This document shows positions 4,260 through 14,758 of a DNA stretch of 17,752 nucleotides, in pieces. The DNA is from an uncultured Oscillospiraceae bacterium (GTDB lineage Bacteria; Bacillota; Clostridia; Oscillospirales; Oscillospiraceae): positions 1 to 17,752 of the forward strand of contig CAKUPH010000043.1 of assembly GCA_934675115.1 (NCBI GenBank). Reading direction: 5' to 3'. The notes below the pieces were generated by a model. That model saw nothing but the letters and a program-made list of their open reading frames with translations, made no database searches and was not told where the DNA came from. The position numbers and the translations under genes are program-made. Within the stretch, counting starts at the first letter, position 1, and each line of letters starts with the position of its first letter.

Positions 4260-4299
4260 AGGCTGCTCAGGCGTGTATTAAGTGAAGGGAGGCGGAGAC

Positions 4300-4773
4300 A
4301 TGGATCGATCCGACCGGCTGGAAACGCTGGTGACAAAGTATGAAAGCACCCTCTTCCGCGCGGCCCTCGCCATTCTGGGAGACGTCCCGGAGGCGGAGGA
4401 CGCGGTGCAGGACACATTCCTGCGCTATCTTGAAAAAGGCCCGGAGTTCCGGGACGAGGGCCACGAGCGGGCGTGGCTGCTGAAGGTGACGGCCAACGGC
4501 TGCAAGAGCCGCCTGCGGAGCCGGAAGCGTCGCCGGACCCAGGAGCTGCCTGACAGCCTCCCTGCCCCGGAGGACGGGAGCCGGGAGGTGCTGGCGGCGG
4601 TGATGGCCCTGCCCGCCAACCAGCGGGCGGCGGTGCACCTCTATTACTATGAGGGCTACTCCACCGGCGAGATCGCCGCCATTCTGGGTCAGCGGCCCGG
4701 GACGGTGCGCAGCCACCTCAGCCGGGCCCGGGACGCCCTCCGGGAGACGCTGAAAGGAGACGTGACGCTGTGA
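4300..4773 (+). CDS. ECF-type RNA polymerase sigma factor
   Basis: The 157-residue protein has the two-domain ECF layout. Sigma region 2 spans about 12-62, with the polymerase-binding and -10 recognition helix around AEDAVQDTFLRYLEK. Sigma region 4 spans about 97-150, beginning LPANQRAAVHLYYYEGYS and containing the helix-turn-helix TGEIAAILGQRPGTVRSHLSRAR that reads the -35 element. A short basic linker (RSRKRRR) separates them. The ATG at 4300 has GGGAGG 7 nt upstream; an in-frame GTG at 4282 is less likely because it precedes that site. Its stop overlaps the next gene's start by 4 nt (GTGA). That overlap and the membrane anchor of the next protein fit a sigma/anti-sigma pair. The signal it responds to is unknown. 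Confidence 0.93.
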   Translation: MDRSDRLETLVTKYESTLFRAALAILGDVPEAEDAVQDTFLRYLEKGPEFRDEGHERAWLLKVTANGCKSRLRSRKRRRTQELPDSLPAPEDGSREVLAAVMALPANQRAAVHLYYYEGYSTGEIAAILGQRPGTVRSHLSRARDALRETLKGDVTL

Positions 4774-5795
4774 AGCGGTACAAGAATATGATGGATCAGG
4801 TGGAGGCTCCGGAGGAGCTCCACCAACGGCTGACGGGGCTGACCGCCCCGAAAAAGGCCGCCCCGTGGAAAAGGTACGGGGCGGTGGCCGCGGCCTTTGT
4901 GCTGGCGGTGGGGATCGGGACGCTGGGCTGGCGGATGCTGGGGCGGAACGCGCCCCCGGCCGGAACGGCGGAGATCGGACGGACCGAACCGGCCGTTGGT
5001 ACGGACACCATCGGCGGTGAGCCCGCGGGAGAGTATGCAGCCGGCAAACGGCACTGGGACACGGACGGCGGCTACGAGGTCGTTGACGGCGAGCTGGCAT
5101 CCTACTATATCCTGCCCGCCATCATCTACAATAGCAGGATGTCGGCGTCCGCCGCCGACTACTCGCTGGCGCCCCCCGGCGCCGTGAGCCAGGAGATCGG
5201 CCGCGCCGACGTGCAGGCCATGCTGGCGGACAAGACGGACATGGCCGTCCACCTGCTGTGGGGGGACGACCTTGACTGGAGCGGTCAGGTGTGGCTGACG
5301 GAGGACGGCACAGTCACCGCCGCGGCGCTGTACGCCGACGGGGCGGAGGTGTCCTTCAGTCTGGAAATGCTGGCGGGGCATGAGGTGCCGGACTGCGTCG
5401 CCTACCCGGACGACGCCTATGAGCGCACCTATTTCTGCGGCACGGAGATCACCGGGCTGAAAAACACGGGCTATATGGTGCGGGAGGACGGCACCGAGCT
5501 GCGGGAGTACCGCCGGGTGTCCTGCTTTGCCAACGGCGTCGGGTACAAGATGACCATTTACGGCGTGGACAGCGAGACGGTGGAAGCCATGTGCGCCCGG
5601 TTCATCCGGTACGCCGCGGTGGAGGGCTTTGACCTTTCCGCCCTGTCCGAGGGCGGCAGCGCCGTGGACGGCACGGTCTCCGGCGGGGAGAGCGAAGCGC
5701 CGGAGGGCGAAGTCAGCGAGGTGGATCAGGCGTCCCTTCCGGCCTACGATCCGGTGGGGGAGCAGCCCGTTCCCAACAGTACGCCGGAGCCGTGA
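4770..5795 (+). CDS. Membrane-anchored probable anti-sigma factor with unknown ectodomain
   Basis: A 341-residue protein. The short cytoplasmic N-terminus (DQVEAPEELHQRL, 9-21) resembles the helical segment seen at the start of many Firmicutes anti-sigma proteins. One transmembrane helix follows at about 37-54, then an extracellular region of some 285 residues. The ectodomain (about 125-290) alternates short strands, contains DDLDWSGQVWLTEDGTVTAA, and is followed by an acidic Gly/Ser/Pro/Glu-rich tail. No zinc-binding HxxxCxxC motif is present, so it is not a ZAS-type anti-sigma factor. The start is GTG at 4770 with AAAGGAG 10 nt upstream, overlapping the sigma stop; ATG at 4788 is an alternative. 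The role is inferred from context; the ectodomain matches no family I recognise. Confidence 0.75.
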   Translation: MKRYKNMMDQVEAPEELHQRLTGLTAPKKAAPWKRYGAVAAAFVLAVGIGTLGWRMLGRNAPPAGTAEIGRTEPAVGTDTIGGEPAGEYAAGKRHWDTDGGYEVVDGELASYYILPAIIYNSRMSASAADYSLAPPGAVSQEIGRADVQAMLADKTDMAVHLLWGDDLDWSGQVWLTEDGTVTAAALYADGAEVSFSLEMLAGHEVPDCVAYPDDAYERTYFCGTEITGLKNTGYMVREDGTELREYRRVSCFANGVGYKMTIYGVDSETVEAMCARFIRYAAVEGFDLSALSEGGSAVDGTVSGGESEAPEGEVSEVDQASLPAYDPVGEQPVPNSTPEP

Positions 5796-5859
5796 AAAAG
5801 CAAAAAGGCACCTGATCTCCGCGAGTTCCCGTGTTAAAAAACAGGAAAATGAGGAGAAA

Positions 5860-5892
5860 CGGCTGGCAGCATTTTGCTGCCAGCCGTTTTTT
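5860..5892 (+). terminator. Terminator of the sigma/anti-sigma unit
   Basis: An 11-bp perfect stem CGGCTGGCAGC (5860-5870 with 5876-5886) has an ATTTT loop and is followed by TTTTTT (5887-5892). It lies 64 nt after the stop at 5795. On the other strand the stem is followed only by TTTCTCC, so it may stop minus-strand transcripts from the gene ending at 5990 only weakly. Confidence 0.88.
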
Positions 5893-5943
5893 ATGCGCCG
5901 TGGGGTAAAATGCGCGGTTTATGCGGGAAACAAGATCCGCGCT

Positions 5944-5970
5944 GTTTCCTCACTCCGGAGTACCGGAAAC
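5944..5970. repeat. Nested palindrome between convergent genes
   Basis: GTTTCC (5944-5949) pairs with GGAAAC (5965-5970), enclosing the 10-bp palindrome ACTCCGGAGT (5952-5961). It lies 20 nt beyond the minus-strand stop at 5990. It has no T-tract and so is not a classical terminator; it could form a 3'-end stem-loop. The remaining bases of this gap show nothing else. Confidence 0.3.
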
Positions 5971-5989
5971 ACGCCGTAGCCCTCCGGAC

Positions 5990-6787
5990 TCACAGGCCCG
6001 GGGAGCGCCCCGCGCTGCCCAGCGCGGGCTGGCCGGACTCGTCCTCCCAAAATTCTGTCATCATGGCCCGGTAGCGCTTGGGCAGGTTGGTGTTCTGACA
6101 GCGGGGATTTTCCCGCTCCCGGATGGCGATGGTCCGGAAAAACCGCCGCCACAGCCGCCGGTAGGTCAGTTCTTCCTCTCCCGGGGGCGCGGGGGCGAAG
6201 TCGTCCAGCGGCACGATGGCGCACTTTCCGGGCCGGTGGACCAGCGCCTCCCGGTGGGTGCGGTCGTAAATGATGAACTGCTCGGTGTTGAACCGGCGGG
6301 AAAAGTGGCCCTTGAGGATGGGCAGAACCCGGTTTTTCGGCTCGATCTCCGAGATGAGCACCCCGTGCTGGTCGGAAAACCGGACGAAGCCGGAATACAG
6401 GTGGGCTTCCTCCCCCAGATGCTGCACCGCCCGGCGGAGGGTGTTCACCCGTTCGTCCCCCAGATCGGCCATGACGGAGGAACCCCGGCGGAAGCCGTAC
6501 TCCACGAACCGCCAGATGTGCAGCTCCCGCTGGTCAAGACAGGTGAGAAACCCCCGGCTCACCAGCTCCCCGGCGGCGGGGGAGATGTTCCGGCAGATGC
6601 CCTTCCACACCCGGACGGCCCGGGCCTCGTCCGTCTCCACCCGGCGGGTGTCCCAGAGGGTATAGCGGCCGTCCTCCGGGCCGAGGAAGCACGCCGGCTC
6701 CTCCTTGTGGGCATAGCTTTCGAACACGCAGGTGAGGAAGCCCGCGAACGTCCCGTCGTACTCGTAGCAGACCTGTGTCCGTTCCAT
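5990..6787 (-). CDS. TIGR03915-type putative DNA repair protein, partner of the radical SAM protein
   Basis: The 265-residue protein begins with the family-typical YEYDGTFAGFLTCVFESY (residues 8-25). It ends with NTNLPKRYRAMMTEFWED, the region usually assigned to DUF4130. The family is named in databases as a putative DNA metabolism/repair protein because it co-occurs with the radical SAM protein encoded just upstream; no activity is established to my knowledge. Some relatives are fused to a uracil-DNA-glycosylase-like domain, which is absent here. The ATG at 6787 has GAGG 8 nt upstream; GTG at 6796 is less well placed. Only 10 nt separate it from the stop of the radical SAM gene, so the two are surely co-transcribed from the promoter at 8097-8124. 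Confidence 0.87.
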   Translation of the reverse strand: MERTQVCYEYDGTFAGFLTCVFESYAHKEEPACFLGPEDGRYTLWDTRRVETDEARAVRVWKGICRNISPAAGELVSRGFLTCLDQRELHIWRFVEYGFRRGSSVMADLGDERVNTLRRAVQHLGEEAHLYSGFVRFSDQHGVLISEIEPKNRVLPILKGHFSRRFNTEQFIIYDRTHREALVHRPGKCAIVPLDDFAPAPPGEEELTYRRLWRRFFRTIAIRERENPRCQNTNLPKRYRAMMTEFWEDESGQPALGSAGRSPGL

Positions 6788-6797
6788 GGCGGACACC

Positions 6798-8063
6798 TCA
6801 GCCCGCGTCGCCGAACAGCGACAGCTGCTCCGGCATGGCGGCCATGAGGGCGGGCTTTTCCAGCGCCACCAGATGGGGCAGGATGCCGTCCTCCCGGAAG
6901 CGCAGCCCCTCCCGCAGCCGCCCGCCGCAGGTGAGGAAATACTGGGCCCGCTTGAGCACCACGCCCACCTTTTTCAGCGTGTCGAAGGACAGCGGCCCCG
7001 CCCGCCGGGCGGTGAGGATCCGCCGGGCGGACTTCACGCCGATCCCCGGCACCCGGAGGAGCATCTCGTAGTCCGCCGTCCCCGCCTCCACCGGGAACTG
7101 GTCCAGGTGCCGCAGGGCCCACGAGCACTTGGGGTCCACCCGGGGGTCGAAGTCCGGCTGGTCGTCGTCCAGAATTTCCTCCGCCCGGAAGCCGTAGTAC
7201 CGCAGCAGCCAGTCCGCCTGATAGAGCCGGTGCTCCCGGAGCAGCGGCGGCTGGAATCCTTGCGGCGCGGGGAGCAGGCTGCTGTCCGACACGGGGATAT
7301 AGGCGGAGTAAAACACCCGCTTGAGCTTGTAGCGGTCGTACAGCGCCTGCGTCAGGGTCAGGATGTGCTTGTCCGTCTCCGGCGTGGCGCCGATGATCAT
7401 CTGGGTAGACTGCCCCGCCGGAGCGAAGCGGGGGGCGTGGCGGTATTTGGCGACCTCCTGCTTCGAGGTATGGATGCCGTCCCGGATCTGTTTCATGGGG
7501 AGCAGAATATTTTCCTTTTTCTTGTCCGGGCACAGCAGGGCCAGCGACCGCTCCGACGGCAGCTCGATGTTCACGCTCATCCGGTCGGCCAGCGTCCCCA
7601 GCCGCCAGTTCAGCCGGGGGTCCGCCCCGGGGATGGCCTTGGCGTGGATGTAGCCCCAGAAGTGGTACTCCTCCCGGAGGATGCGCAGTACCTCGATCAT
7701 CCGCTCGGTGGTGTCGTCCGGGCTGACCACCACCGCCGACGAGAGGAACAGCCCCTCAATGTAGTTGCGGCGGTAGAACTGGATGGTGAGGTCGGCCAGC
7801 TCCCGGGGCTCGAACATGGCCCGGGGCAGGTCATTGGAGCGGCGGTTGACGCAGTACTGGCAGTCGTAGGCGCACACGTTGGTGAGCAGCACCTTCAGCA
7901 GGGTCACGCACCGGCCGTCGGCGGAAAAGGTGTGGCAGCAGCCCGCCATGGTGGTGGAGCCCATGCGGCCCCGCTTTGCCTGCCGGTCAAGGCCGCTGGA
8001 GGTGCAGGCCGCGTCGTATTTGGCGGCGTCCGCCAGAATGGTGAGCTTCTCCATGGTATCCAT
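6798..8063 (-). CDS. TIGR03916-type putative DNA modification/repair radical SAM protein
   Basis: A 421-residue protein. The radical SAM cluster motif is C64-x3-C68-x2-C71 (TNVCAYDCQYC), placed unusually after about 60 N-terminal residues that carry further cysteines (C20, C42, C43, C52). The barrel includes GLFLSSAVVVSPDDT and GYIHAKAIPGADP. Near the C-terminus LLRVPGIGVKSARRIL (G340-I341-G342) is a clear helix-hairpin-helix, a non-sequence-specific DNA-binding motif, and the end reads EQLSLFGDAG. The product therefore looks like a SAM-radical enzyme acting on DNA; chemistry and lesion are unknown. The ATG at 8063 has AAAGGAG 8 nt upstream, while an in-frame GTG at 8072 overlaps that site. 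A LexA-like operator lies in its promoter. Confidence 0.92.
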   Translation of the reverse strand: MDTMEKLTILADAAKYDAACTSSGLDRQAKRGRMGSTTMAGCCHTFSADGRCVTLLKVLLTNVCAYDCQYCVNRRSNDLPRAMFEPRELADLTIQFYRRNYIEGLFLSSAVVVSPDDTTERMIEVLRILREEYHFWGYIHAKAIPGADPRLNWRLGTLADRMSVNIELPSERSLALLCPDKKKENILLPMKQIRDGIHTSKQEVAKYRHAPRFAPAGQSTQMIIGATPETDKHILTLTQALYDRYKLKRVFYSAYIPVSDSSLLPAPQGFQPPLLREHRLYQADWLLRYYGFRAEEILDDDQPDFDPRVDPKCSWALRHLDQFPVEAGTADYEMLLRVPGIGVKSARRILTARRAGPLSFDTLKKVGVVLKRAQYFLTCGGRLREGLRFREDGILPHLVALEKPALMAAMPEQLSLFGDAG

Positions 8064-8079
8064 CTGCCGCACTCCTTTC

Positions 8080-8093
8080 AGAACATTTGTACC
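8080..8093 (-). promoter_or_regulatory. Second, degenerate LexA-like box
   Basis: On the plus strand this reads AGAAC-ATTT-GTACC, which keeps 7 of the 10 half-site bases of CGAAC-N4-GTTCG. It overlaps the expected transcription start of the radical SAM gene and is centred 25 bp from the stronger box. It may be a weak auxiliary site or chance. Confidence 0.3.
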
Positions 8094-8096
8094 ACC

Positions 8097-8124
8097 ATTA
8101 TAATCGAACTTTTGTTCTTGTCAA
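8097..8124 (-). promoter_or_regulatory. sigmaA promoter of the radical SAM/TIGR03915 operon
   Basis: On the minus strand both hexamers match consensus perfectly: -35 TTGACA (8124-8119) and -10 TATAAT (8102-8097), with a 16-nt spacer. Such a strong promoter for a repair enzyme makes sense only if it is repressed, and the spacer is occupied by a LexA-like box. Transcription would start near 8090, about 27 nt before the ATG. Confidence 0.85.
8105..8118. promoter_or_regulatory. LexA/DinR-like SOS box within the promoter spacer
   Basis: The plus strand reads CGAAC-TTTT-GTTCT. The GAAC-N4-GTTC core of the Firmicutes LexA (DinR) operator is perfect, and 9 of the 10 bases of CGAAC-N4-GTTCG match. 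The box fills almost the whole spacer between the perfect -35 and -10 hexamers, so a bound repressor would block RNA polymerase. This supports damage-inducible expression of the downstream radical SAM pair. The lexA gene itself is not in the window. Confidence 0.7.
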
Positions 8125-8129
8125 GGGGT

Positions 8130-8171
8130 AAAAAATACCGGCCCGGGACAGCTTCCCGGGCCGGTATTTTT
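8130..8171 (-). terminator. Bidirectional terminator downstream of truA
   Basis: A 13-bp perfect stem (TACCGGCCCGGGA at 8136-8148 with 8154-8166) closes on CAGCT. AAAAAA precedes it (8130-8135) and TTTTT follows (8167-8171). It lies 6 nt past the truA stop and ends just short of the -35 box of the radical SAM promoter, separating the two same-strand units. Confidence 0.9.
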
Positions 8172-8177
8172 GGTGTT

Positions 8178-8912
8178 TTAATAGATGACCTCCATCAGCG
8201 TCAGGCCCTGCGCCGGGGCGGTAAAGCCGGCGGAGGCGCGGTCCCGGGCCGCCAGCACGGCTGGCATATCCTCCGCCCGGTGCTTGCCGAGGCCCACCTC
8301 CAGCAGCGTGCCGGTGAGGATGCGCACCATGTTGTAGAGGAAGCCCTCGCCCCGAAAGGTGAGGGTCAGTTCGTCCCCATGCCGGGCAAGCTCGATGGCG
8401 GTCACGGTGCGGACGGTGGACTTCTTGCAGCGCTTGTTGGCGCAGAAGGAGCGGTAGTCGTGCCGCCCGCAGAGCAGCTCCGCCGCCCGGGCCATGGCGT
8501 CCAGATCCAGCGGCTCCTCCACCCGGTACTGGTACTTTCGGGCGAATACGTCGGGGACGGTCCCCAGCCGCAGGCGGTAGCGGTACACCTTGCCCTTTGC
8601 GGACAGCCGGGCGTGGAAGCGGTCGTCCGCGGTCTCCGCCGCCGTCACTGCGATGTCCTCCGGCAGGTAGCGGTTGGCGTAGGCCTTGACCTCCGACGCC
8701 GGGCGCTCCCCGGGCAGGCGGACGCTGGCCGTCTGGCCCAGCGCGTGGACCCCCGCATCGGTGCGGCCTGCGCCGTGGACCTCCACCCGCTCTCCCGCCA
8801 GCCGGGACAGCACCTCCTCCAGCTTGGCCTGAATGGTGTTGGCGGTGTTGCCCTGCCGCTGCCAGCCGTCATAGCGGCTGCCGTCGTATTGCAGGGTGAG
8901 CTTGTAGTTCAT
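8178..8912 (-). CDS. truA: tRNA pseudouridine(38-40) synthase TruA
   Basis: A 244-residue protein of normal family length. It begins MNYKLTLQYDGSRYDGWQRQ and carries the catalytic motif GRTDAGVHA with the nucleophile D52. Later family blocks are FHARLSAKGKVYRYR, DYRSFCANK and FLYNMVRILTGTLLEVG. TruA converts uridines 38, 39 and 40 of the tRNA anticodon stem to pseudouridine in the cytoplasm. The ATG overlaps the hemZ stop by 4 nt (ATGA), so translation is probably coupled, and the transcript ends at the terminator 8130-8171. The assignment is secure. Confidence 0.97.
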   Translation of the reverse strand: MNYKLTLQYDGSRYDGWQRQGNTANTIQAKLEEVLSRLAGERVEVHGAGRTDAGVHALGQTASVRLPGERPASEVKAYANRYLPEDIAVTAAETADDRFHARLSAKGKVYRYRLRLGTVPDVFARKYQYRVEEPLDLDAMARAAELLCGRHDYRSFCANKRCKKSTVRTVTAIELARHGDELTLTFRGEGFLYNMVRILTGTLLEVGLGKHRAEDMPAVLAARDRASAGFTAPAQGLTLMEVIY

Positions 8913-10402
8913 GCCGTTCCCTCCGCAAGGCTCCGCTGAAAGTCGGCGGCGGCCTTTTTGTCCGCGGCGATCTTTTCAAAGCTGTTCAGGTATTCCTGCG
9001 GGTATTTGGGGTTGGACAGGCGGGTGATCTTCCCGGTGTTCGGGTCCACCAGCTTGGTGATGCCCCCCGCGCCCAGCGACAGGACGGATTGCAGCTCCTC
9101 CATCATGATGATGTTGTAGGCGCACACCGTCCCCGGACGGCACCAGCCCACATTTTCAAAGGAGCCGGACATATATTTCTGCCGGTAGAGATAATAGGGC
9201 GCGTAGCCCGCCGCCCGGAGCTGTTCCTCCGCCAGCGTCAGCATGGCGGCCACCTCCTCCGGGGTGCAGAGATCGCCCCCTTCCTCCGCCAGCCGCGCGC
9301 CCTTTTTCAGGGCGAGGGTGTGGACGGTGATGTTGGCCGGGGCCATGCCCAGCACGCCGGACAGGGTGCGCTCAAAGCCCGCAAGGCTGTCCGTGGGCAG
9401 GCCCGCGATGAGGTCCATGTTCACCATGCCGCCGAAGTGCTCCTCCGCCAGCGCCATGGCCTCTCCGATCTGGGCGGCGGTGTGGGCGCGGCCCATGGCC
9501 CGGAGGACGTGATCCTCCAGCGTCTGGGGGTTGACGGAAATGCGCTGGATGCCGTGGCGGCGCAGGGTGTCCAGCTTGTCCGCCGTGATGGTGTCCGGCC
9601 GCCCGGCCTCCACGGTGAACTCCGCGCAGCGCTCCATGGGCAGAAATCGTTCCGCCGCCGTCAGCACCCGGTCCAGCTGCTCCGCCGACAGGGTGGTGGG
9701 CGTACCGCCGCCCATGTAGGCGGTGCTGATGTGCAGCCCCCGCTCCCGCAGCAGCGCGCCGGACAGCTCGATCTCCCGGCACAGGGCGTCCACGTATGGC
9801 TCCACCAGCCGCAGCGCCCGGTTCACGTCGGCGGAGATGAAGGAGCAGTAGGCGCAGCGGGTGGGGCAGAAGGGGATGCCGATATAGAGGGACATCCCGT
9901 CGGGTGCAAGGCTCCGGCGGACGGCAAGGGCCGCGTCGGCGCACTCCATGGCAAGCTCCGCCCGGCTCTCGCTGACCCGGAACAGGCCGGTGAGCCGGGA
10001 TTTTGCCGCCGCCCGGCTGTCTCCCGCCGCCATCTGACGGGTGGGCAGCTTCACCGGCCGCACGCCGGTCAGCGCCCCCCATGGCGGCTCGTGGCCCAGC
10101 GCGGCCACCCCGGCGTCGTAAAAGGCCAGCCGCAGCACCCGCTGGCGCACCCGGTCGTCCTCCAGTCCGCCGGTGAGCTCGCTCACCGGGGCGCGGCGGA
10201 CGCCGGCGGTGTGCGCTCCGTTCCACCACAGCTCCGCCCGGGCGACGACCTCACCGCCCTCCACGGCGAGGGTCAGCCAGGCGGCGTTGTCTGTGCCGTC
10301 CGGCCCCTCCGCCGGGTATTCCGGCCGCTGGCCGGGGAAGAGGGTGAGCATCATCTGCTCGGCGGCGTAGCGGTAGTCGTGGCCTTCCAGATACAGCCGC
10401 AT
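8909..10402 (-). CDS. hemZ: HemZ-type coproporphyrinogen dehydrogenase-like radical SAM protein
   Basis: A 497-residue protein. The N-terminal part (1 to about 165) includes EPPWGALTGVRPVKLP, typical of the HemZ branch and absent from HemN/HemW. The radical SAM motif is C179-x3-C183-x2-C186 (FCPTRCAYCSF), followed by MGGGTPTTL, EFTVEAGRPDTI and the SVNPQT block. The C-terminal domain starts around LYRQKYMSGSFENVGW. HemZ of Bacillus is linked to oxygen-independent coproporphyrinogen III oxidation, but many Clostridia with this gene lack complete heme synthesis, so the true substrate is uncertain; no other heme gene is in view. Its start overlaps the stop of the upstream hydrolase gene by one base (TGATG), and its stop overlaps truA. 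Confidence 0.93.
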   Translation of the reverse strand: MRLYLEGHDYRYAAEQMMLTLFPGQRPEYPAEGPDGTDNAAWLTLAVEGGEVVARAELWWNGAHTAGVRRAPVSELTGGLEDDRVRQRVLRLAFYDAGVAALGHEPPWGALTGVRPVKLPTRQMAAGDSRAAAKSRLTGLFRVSESRAELAMECADAALAVRRSLAPDGMSLYIGIPFCPTRCAYCSFISADVNRALRLVEPYVDALCREIELSGALLRERGLHISTAYMGGGTPTTLSAEQLDRVLTAAERFLPMERCAEFTVEAGRPDTITADKLDTLRRHGIQRISVNPQTLEDHVLRAMGRAHTAAQIGEAMALAEEHFGGMVNMDLIAGLPTDSLAGFERTLSGVLGMAPANITVHTLALKKGARLAEEGGDLCTPEEVAAMLTLAEEQLRAAGYAPYYLYRQKYMSGSFENVGWCRPGTVCAYNIIMMEELQSVLSLGAGGITKLVDPNTGKITRLSNPKYPQEYLNSFEKIAADKKAAADFQRSLAEGTA

Positions 10403-11051: not shown

Positions 11052-11251
11052 AAAAAATTTCATCTCGTCGAAAAAGGCAAAGCCTTTTCCGACGAATAGG
11101 TTGCGCCCCGCCGCAGCGCACAAAATGTCCGCTATCTGCGGCCATTTCGCACGTTTGCGGGGCGAGAAGTGTTTTCTGCCACGCGCATGTCGCGGCAGAA
11201 AACGGATCATATTTCTTTCGCCGCTGCGGCGGCGAAAATCTACGTTTTTTT
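11052..11251. repeat. Palindrome-dense intergenic block of about 200 bp
   Basis: The gene-free space between the mutS stop and the hydrolase start holds four successive inverted repeats, bounded by GAAAAAA on the left (11051-11057) and TTTTTTTC on the right (11245-11252). Hairpin 1 is 11065-11095 (14-bp stem, one mismatch, AAA loop). Repeat 2 has outer arms CGCCCCGC/GCGGGGCG at 11104-11111 and 11157-11164, with possible inner stems. Hairpin 3 is 11171-11180 with 11194-11203 (GTTTTCTGCC/GGCAGAAAAC). Hairpin 4 is 11216-11224 with 11229-11237 (TTTCGCCGC/GCGGCGAAA). No ORF, transposase or tRNA is present. It resembles a dispersed structured intergenic repeat or MITE-like element. Confidence 0.5.
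11065..11095 (-). other. Strong stem-loop before the hydrolase gene, possible attenuator
   Basis: A 14-bp stem (11065-11078 with 11082-11095) has an AAA/TTT loop. On the minus-strand RNA its single mismatch becomes a G-U wobble pair. It is followed in that direction by GATGAAATTTTTT, a T6 run 7 nt from the stem, which is too far for a classical terminator but may act partially. It ends 27 nt before the hydrolase ATG and 13 nt before its ribosome binding site. Confidence 0.35.
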
Positions 11252-13921: not shown

Positions 13922-14758
13922 TCACTCCACCACGTCGAATTCCTTGATGATGAACACGTACTTCTGCCCCTCCAGATCGGCGGAGGGCTTGACCACCGCG
14001 TAGCGGTCAAGGCCGTTGGCCTCGGTGTGGATGGACTCGATGGTGCCCACCACCAGCCCGGCGGGGTACACAAGGCCCAGCCCGGAGGTGGTGATCTGGT
14101 CGCCGGAGATGAGCTCCGTGTCCTCGGGCAGGTAGCTGAGCTTCAGCCGCCCGTCCAGCATGAGGGTGAAGTCCCCCTCCAGAATGGCGGCGTCGTCCGT
14201 CCGGGCCACCCGGCCGCCCAGCTCCACCTCCGCGTCGGTGATGTAGGACATGACGCAGCTGTTGTAGTCCACCTCGGTGACGATGCCCACCAGATTGCCG
14301 TACTGGTCCACCACGCAGTCGTTTTCCTCCACGTCCTGCTTGGAGCCCTTGTTCAGCGTGGCCGTCCGGGTCCAGCTGGAGGTGGTGCGCTGGGTCACCG
14401 TGGCCTCCTCAAAGACGAAGTCCGACCGCTTCTGGGCAAGGCCCAGCAGCTCCCGGTACAGCTCGTTCTGCCGGACGGCGTCCTCGTAGTCCCGCTCCAG
14501 CTTTTCAAGGTCGGCCACCCGGGACTTGAGCTCCTCGTTGGACTCCTCCAGCGCGTCGTAGCGGAAGGCCCGGTCGTACCGGTCCTCTACCCATTCCGCC
14601 GCGGCGGAGGACAGGCTCCGGAAGGGGGTGGTGACGACCCCCAGCACGTCGGCCAGCGGATCCCCGCCCAGAATGAAGGCGCCCACCGCCAGCACCGCCG
14701 CCAGCAGGACGGCGGCGATGAGGATCAGTGCGCCGTTGTTGCGGAAAAACTGCTTCAT
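13922..14758 (-). CDS. mreC: Rod shape-determining protein MreC
   Basis: A 278-residue protein with the classic MreC plan. It has a short cytoplasmic N-terminus, one transmembrane helix (about 10-31), a coiled coil (about 65-105, with EESNEELKSRVADLEKLERD), and an extracytoplasmic double beta-barrel (VTQRTTSSWTRTATLNKG, then GNLVGIVTEV and TTSGLGLVYPAGLVVGTI). MreC dimerises and links the elongasome (PBP2/RodA, MreB, MreD) outside the membrane. AAAGGAG lies 7 nt before the ATG. It sits 22 nt after maf and 42 nt before mutS. mreB and mreD, normally directly adjacent, are missing from both sides. Confidence 0.95.
   Translation of the reverse strand: MKQFFRNNGALILIAAVLLAAVLAVGAFILGGDPLADVLGVVTTPFRSLSSAAAEWVEDRYDRAFRYDALEESNEELKSRVADLEKLERDYEDAVRQNELYRELLGLAQKRSDFVFEEATVTQRTTSSWTRTATLNKGSKQDVEENDCVVDQYGNLVGIVTEVDYNSCVMSYITDAEVELGGRVARTDDAAILEGDFTLMLDGRLKLSYLPEDTELISGDQITTSGLGLVYPAGLVVGTIESIHTEANGLDRYAVVKPSADLEGQKYVFIIKEFDVVE

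Follow-up and report, generated by a model that had tools for sequence, protein, structure and literature searches.

A two-gene operon encoding a TIGR03916 radical SAM protein and a TIGR03915 protein in an uncultured Oscillospiraceae bacterium is headed by what appears, from its sequence and that of its relatives, to be a real pair of LexA operators. LexA control of such an operon had already been predicted. What is new is a candidate repressor in LexA-less relatives, well supported by comparative evidence, which is predicted to have replaced LexA and to use an operator of its own at both the operon and recA. Throughout, the window is the whole stretch of DNA that we analysed (17,752 nt).

Promoter and putative operator layout

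The initial annotation had described a promoter in which TTGACA and TATAAT are separated by 16 nt, with the spacer (8118 to 8103) filled by AGAACAAAAGTTCG, and both the sequence read and motif scans confirmed this arrangement, on the minus strand (Table 1). The two hexamers form the sole 12/12 sigma-70 match within 5700–9200, a region that holds three promoter-like sites against a mean of 0.4 in shuffles, and the promoter lies 33 nt upstream of the radical SAM ATG (8063). The box in the spacer, O1, is the only match in the window to CGAACNNNNGTTCG with one mismatch; when up to three mismatches are allowed, the window has 51 matches, fewer than the shuffle mean of 77. An operator of the GAAC-N4-GTTC type, characteristic of a Firmicutes-type LexA/SOS regulon, overlaps the promoter. 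A second box, O2, which was missing from the earlier description, lies directly downstream of the −10 hexamer and covers the expected transcription start.

Table 1. Coordinates of the promoter, putative operators, genes and related loci.
Feature	Position	Strand	Basis or remark
−35 hexamer TTGACA	8119..8124	−	sequence read, promoter scan
−10 hexamer TATAAT	8097..8102	−	sequence read, promoter scan
Putative operator O1, AGAACAAAAGTTCG	8105..8118	−	within −35/−10 spacer; 10.8 bits, lexA-derived matrix
Putative operator O2, GTACAAATGTTC (+ strand GAACATTTGTAC)	8081..8092	−	6.0 bits, lexA-derived matrix
TIGR03916 radical SAM gene	6798..8063	−	NCBIfam profile 634.2 bits, cut-off 343.5
TIGR03915 putative DNA repair protein (DUF4130), 268 aa	5990..6796	−	225.8 bits, cut-off 112.25
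Strong terminator-like hairpin, 18 pairs	8131..8171	found on +	between truA and promoter
HTH + S24 repressor gene upstream of radical SAM–TIGR03915 operon	loci L331–L352 (G001, G506, G221, others)		
ACAAC-N5-GTTGT at recA −35	loci L375, L380, L373, L374, around position 1500		

The TIGR03915 gene begins next to the radical SAM stop codon, and both proteins score above their curated cut-offs. For the TIGR03916 protein, the Pfam matches to radical SAM and helix-hairpin-helix domains are weak and below Pfam's own cut-offs; the second protein matches DUF4130. A search by sequence revealed no relative of the radical SAM protein with a solved structure. The weak matches suggest chemistry on DNA, and the pair is probably a DNA-repair operon. 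The hairpin sits a few bases upstream of the promoter and separates it from truA; it presumably also terminates truA on the minus strand and would thereby set the operon apart as its own transcription unit. Elsewhere in the window, on the plus strand at 4282–5795, an ECF sigma factor gene followed by a possible anti-sigma partner converges with the repair operon; the candidate anti-sigma gene had no NCBIfam match.

We scored these boxes with a palindromic LexA matrix learned from random seeds on lexA upstreams only (61 of 75 were extracted and 14 left out). The motif GCAAACATATGTTTGC was recovered in seven of the eight best learning runs shown. One quarter of the 61 lexA upstreams score below 2.7 bits with this matrix, so lexA either lacks autoregulation in those genomes or has a misplaced gene start. 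O1 has the top score in the whole window and O2 ranks third, each with one position that the matrix disfavors; each may therefore be a weaker site, and the two stronger together. Rank two is a match of 7.1 bits at 11234–11249, before a metallo-beta-lactamase-fold gene on the minus strand. There is also a weak match of 4.3 bits at 13952–13967, before mutS on the minus strand. Both of these are within chance expectation for the window.

When only the 71-nt promoter stretch was shuffled, the O1 score was reached in 26 of 5000 shuffles, and two matches of at least 5.9 bits occurred together in 5 of 5000. Across whole-window shuffles, 1.6 matches of at least 5.9 bits are expected per window, and in 12.5% of 400 such shuffles the O1 score is reached at some position. 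The window sequence alone would therefore not settle the LexA reading. It makes a LexA operator suggestive; conservation in relatives makes this predicted operator solid.

Conservation of the putative operator in relatives

A contig scan gave just two relatives, and we therefore gathered them by whole-genome searches for TIGR03916 genes in four rounds. TIGR03916 was above cut-off in 24 of 200 genomes of one family (round 1) and matched in 161 of 396 genomes of a second (round 2). These first families, those of G002 and G001, differ from the window's own, and rounds 3 and 4 moved through relatives toward the family nearest to the window, which was reached via G649. We scored 144 genomes over a 170-nt stretch that extends about 45 nt into the gene (200 nt for G632, G619, G604 and G628); radical SAM upstreams of G050, G029, G093, G447, G376 and G679 were left out. 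LexA was counted as present when a protein scored above the curated lexA cut-off. As a control, 118 of the 144 upstreams were given 20 plain shuffles each (2360 in total).

The operator is conserved in orthologous promoters and tracks the presence of LexA. Of the 109 genomes with LexA, 102 have a site above 6 bits before the orthologous gene, but only 8 of the 35 without LexA do (Fisher test, P = 6 × 10−16, although the genomes are related and their independence is thus overstated); such a site occurs in 94 of the 2360 shuffled upstreams (4%). At 10 bits, the corresponding counts are 85 of 109, 8 of 35 and 10 of 2360. Across 77 of 78 loci, the 150 nt upstream of the gene contain 63 sites of at least 10 bits, versus 13 in 303,395 other positions, and by eye the DNA flanking the boxes has diverged among genomes. 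Some of the seven LexA-bearing genomes without a site above 6 bits have other box centers (for example, GAACTTAAGTTC in G722). Incomplete assemblies are a possible cause of the eight LexA-less genomes with a box; genome completeness was not given. In one family, five loci (L033, L035, L036, L037 and L038) share a conserved TGTTCG-AATTTTAC-TGGCGTTCGGTTGATT-like stretch before the −10 of the radical SAM gene, with LexA-like half-sites spaced too widely for a standard box.

Conservation is also evident among the closest relatives. The nearest-family radical SAM proteins are 72 to 79% identical to that of the window, and in the radical SAM tree, 20 nearest-family rows and the window form one set (support 100/99). 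By eye, 18 of these 20 promoters have a LexA-like box in the same −35/−10 spacer as O1, such as GTACRTTTGTTCGA; its left half is mostly GTAC or GAAC, with two cases of GCAC and one of ATAC. An O2-like box directly after the −10 is present in 7 of the 20, and both boxes are present in 5 (again by eye). Of three further members of the family, the first carries a 16.5-bit site, the second carries GAACTTAAGTTC at 4.9 bits, and the third, G688, shows no box.

LexA is above cut-off in 22 of 23 nearest-family genomes, the remaining one having a lexA fragment at a contig edge. A LexA consensus of a different kind in these genomes would have told against the initial annotation's reading of O1, yet the lexA promoters of these relatives carry GAAC-N4-GTTT sites, mostly GAACAAATGTTTGC, which exceed 10 bits in 21 of 22. 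Together with the recurrence of the box in orthologous promoters and its association with LexA presence, this supports the interpretation as a LexA site. That annotation had also looked to the box for independent support of a repair role for the operon, and its conservation in relatives lends such support, pointing to a damage-linked role.

One result tells against a textbook SOS regulon in the nearest family: recA, taken as a positive control, shows no LexA box. Of the 23 nearest-family genomes covered by the recA search, two were unusable, and 20 of the other 21 upstreams score at or below 6 bits. The stretch upstream of recA at L310 and at other nearest-family loci looks coding; recA is thus preceded by an apparent coding frame, and its promoter may therefore lie further upstream.

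A candidate replacement repressor in LexA-less relatives

Among the 27 genomes with neither LexA nor the box, 19 have a same-strand gene upstream of the operon, roughly 36 to 1512 nt from the radical SAM start, that encodes a protein with a Cro/CI-type HTH and an S24 peptidase. No same-strand S24 gene is shown upstream in the other eight (G068, G211, G693, G712, G632, G604, G585 and G526); in G585 the operon is at a contig end, and in G526 an S24 match lies nearby on the opposite strand. Note that G221 and G567 are nearly single contigs, and their missing LexA is therefore not merely missing sequence. A single change on the radical SAM tree accounts for the S24-linked genes (nine rows, support 88/63).

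We examined 21 S24 proteins, namely those of the 19 genomes plus G447 and G581. All 21 keep V[RK]AG[YF], which is the Ala-Gly site, as well as GDSMEPRI, TLK[KR] and the HTH signature Q.VGKWE. They have an HTH and an S24 domain with the Ala-Gly cleavage site and a Ser-Lys pair, and Pfam assigned HTH_3 and Peptidase_S24 to the one protein submitted. One S24 protein scored 72.6 bits with the NCBIfam lexA profile, for which the cut-off is 110.95, and matched positions 77–196 of 203, the S24 part only; it is therefore not canonical LexA. In databases, its close relatives have entries whose names point to Fournierella/Allofournierella and are called 'LexA family protein', a label that conceals the switch of regulator. 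The LexA-bearing genomes G522 and G425 also encode such proteins at loci apart from the operon, and LexA-bearing G558 has an S24 match just upstream of the operon as well.

The S24 upstreams share a palindrome of their own. A de novo search, with near-copies excluded, returned CAACAA-N4-TTGTTG (score 101 versus 32 for shuffled sequence). An ACAAC-N5-GTTGT-like site is present in 17 of 21 S24 upstreams (all except G226, G280, G371 and G567), compared with 0.6% of shuffles and 0 of 88 radical SAM upstreams. Likewise, in 17 of 21 (all except G001, G226, G280 and G447), a GTTGTA-type half-site abuts the −10 behind a TTTAC −35. The spacer architecture of the S24 promoters equals that of the window, while the palindrome differs.

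The same palindrome is found at recA, which was not used in deriving it. Across five LexA-less genomes there are 11 distinct exact ACAAC-N5-GTTGT sites, of which three are at the S24–radical SAM operon, four at recA and four elsewhere; two LexA-bearing genomes have one and none. The count does not exceed that of the reversed control (11 versus 14), and only the locations of the sites therefore carry weight. An exact palindrome precedes recA in four of the five LexA-less genomes, lying 100 to 134 nt upstream of the start and, judged by eye, overlapping the −35 each time. For G567 and G371, the recA site is the sole exact match in the genome. We identified recA by NCBIfam for one protein (555.9 bits) and from the N-termini for three.

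The S24 repressor thus has the look of an SOS regulator that replaces LexA and has not been described before. We think it likely that in a LexA-less Oscillospiraceae lineage, a CI-type HTH and S24 repressor became the SOS regulator, coming to head the radical SAM–TIGR03915 operon, to repress itself and that operon via ACAAC-N5-GTTGT-like sites, one of which is in the −35/−10 spacer, and to repress recA via the same palindrome over the −35. If so, damage control of the repair operon outlasted a change of both repressor and DNA site, and the operon came to be physically linked with its own regulator.

Mechanism and alternative explanations

LexA repression with induction by damage is the best explanation of the window promoter, and we regard it as very probable. 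Positions 8081–8118 are best explained as the part of a sigma-70 promoter that holds two LexA operators, given the layout, its conservation and the association of the box with LexA presence across genomes. We infer that LexA binds here, that it uses O2 as well as O1, that induction depends on RecA and that the enzymes act in repair. LexA would cover the −35/−10 spacer when on O1 and the start site when on O2, and from both sites it would keep RNA polymerase off a promoter of consensus strength. Upon DNA damage, RecA filaments would trigger self-cleavage of LexA, and once the sites were vacated the TIGR03916–TIGR03915 operon would be strongly switched on.

An ordinary objection is that the box is a functionless chance palindrome in the AT-rich promoter of a GC-rich genome, as the frequency of equally good matches in whole-window shuffles might suggest. 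However, 18 of the 20 nearest promoters have a box in the same place, and shuffled orthologous upstreams rarely reach 6 bits; we consider this explanation barely credible. Alternatively, the box could serve as operator for a palindrome-binding repressor other than LexA whose site resembles that of LexA. Many of these genomes encode additional S24-type regulators, and the GTAC half-site that is frequent in nearest-family boxes is unseen in the lexA promoters of the same family. However, the matrix that finds the box was derived solely from lexA upstreams, the presence of the box follows lexA across genomes, and the S24 repressor of the LexA-less relatives has a different palindrome, all of which makes a repressor other than LexA quite improbable.

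It is also conceivable that LexA binds but that the operon is expressed about equally with or without damage, in which case LexA would exert little control and none that bears on repair. In favor of this, the promoter has consensus strength, and the radical SAM protein has no solved relative by sequence. Against this, the operon stands behind another damage-type repressor gene in 19 of the 27 genomes without LexA and box, and the damage-sensing link therefore seems to have been kept despite the change of regulator. We judge such a minor role unlikely, and damage-inducible repression by LexA remains our preferred explanation of the window promoter. The result supports a damage-linked role of the operon and does not address its chemistry.

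Relation to known SOS systems

We take CAC3344 to be a member of TIGR03915, and COG4277 to be probably the same radical SAM family as TIGR03916. LexA control of an operon like that of the window was already predicted in C. acetobutylicum, where footprinting and co-expression place CAC3343–CAC3344 in the LexA regulon (PMC3828012). In Bacteroidetes, Verrucomicrobia and Alphaproteobacteria, a uracil-DNA glycosylase (UDG) operon, COG1573–COG4277, is described as being under SOS control (PMC8565304); its partner gene encodes a uracil-DNA glycosylase, whereas the partner in the window is TIGR03915. Our findings provide strong and independent support for a place of the TIGR03916/TIGR03915 pair in the DNA-damage response of Clostridia, beyond one earlier prediction.

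The B. subtilis LexA (DinR) operator is given as GAAC-N4-GTTC (PMC4234289). The boxes in the window resemble those of Firmicutes LexA (DinR) in their half-sites, 4-nt center, position over promoter elements and presence at the lexA genes of relatives. Unlike the B. subtilis operator, the window has one disfavored position per box and two boxes flanking the −10, and GTAC half-sites are common in its nearest family.

S24 repressors that replace LexA are described for Streptococcaceae (HdiR), Moraxellaceae, Bacteroidetes and Francisella (PMC8565304, PMC13148647); HdiR regulates its own gene and, in S. thermophilus, also cinA-recA (PMC8565304). HdiR and the Bacteroidetes and Francisella repressors are like the one in our LexA-less relatives in combining an HTH with a self-cleaving S24 domain. 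The latter differs in its Oscillospiraceae lineage, its linkage to the radical SAM operon and its ACAAC-N5-GTTGT operator. Among the literature matches listed, a set in which subscription journals are mostly absent, none describes an S24 SOS regulator in Oscillospiraceae, Ruminococcaceae, Faecalibacterium or Fournierella. The exchange of regulators in LexA-less relatives amounts to a natural test, as a repressor of the damage type is kept although repressor and operator both change, and it offers a concrete hypothesis for the SOS response in gut bacteria that do not have LexA.

Further exact palindromes lie near other genes in these LexA-less genomes. In G221, a double exact site (L377, 1501–1545) is located about 300 nt before a 413-aa open reading frame on the other strand, and in G335, an exact site (L371, 1501) precedes a 380-aa open reading frame that looks restriction-like by eye.
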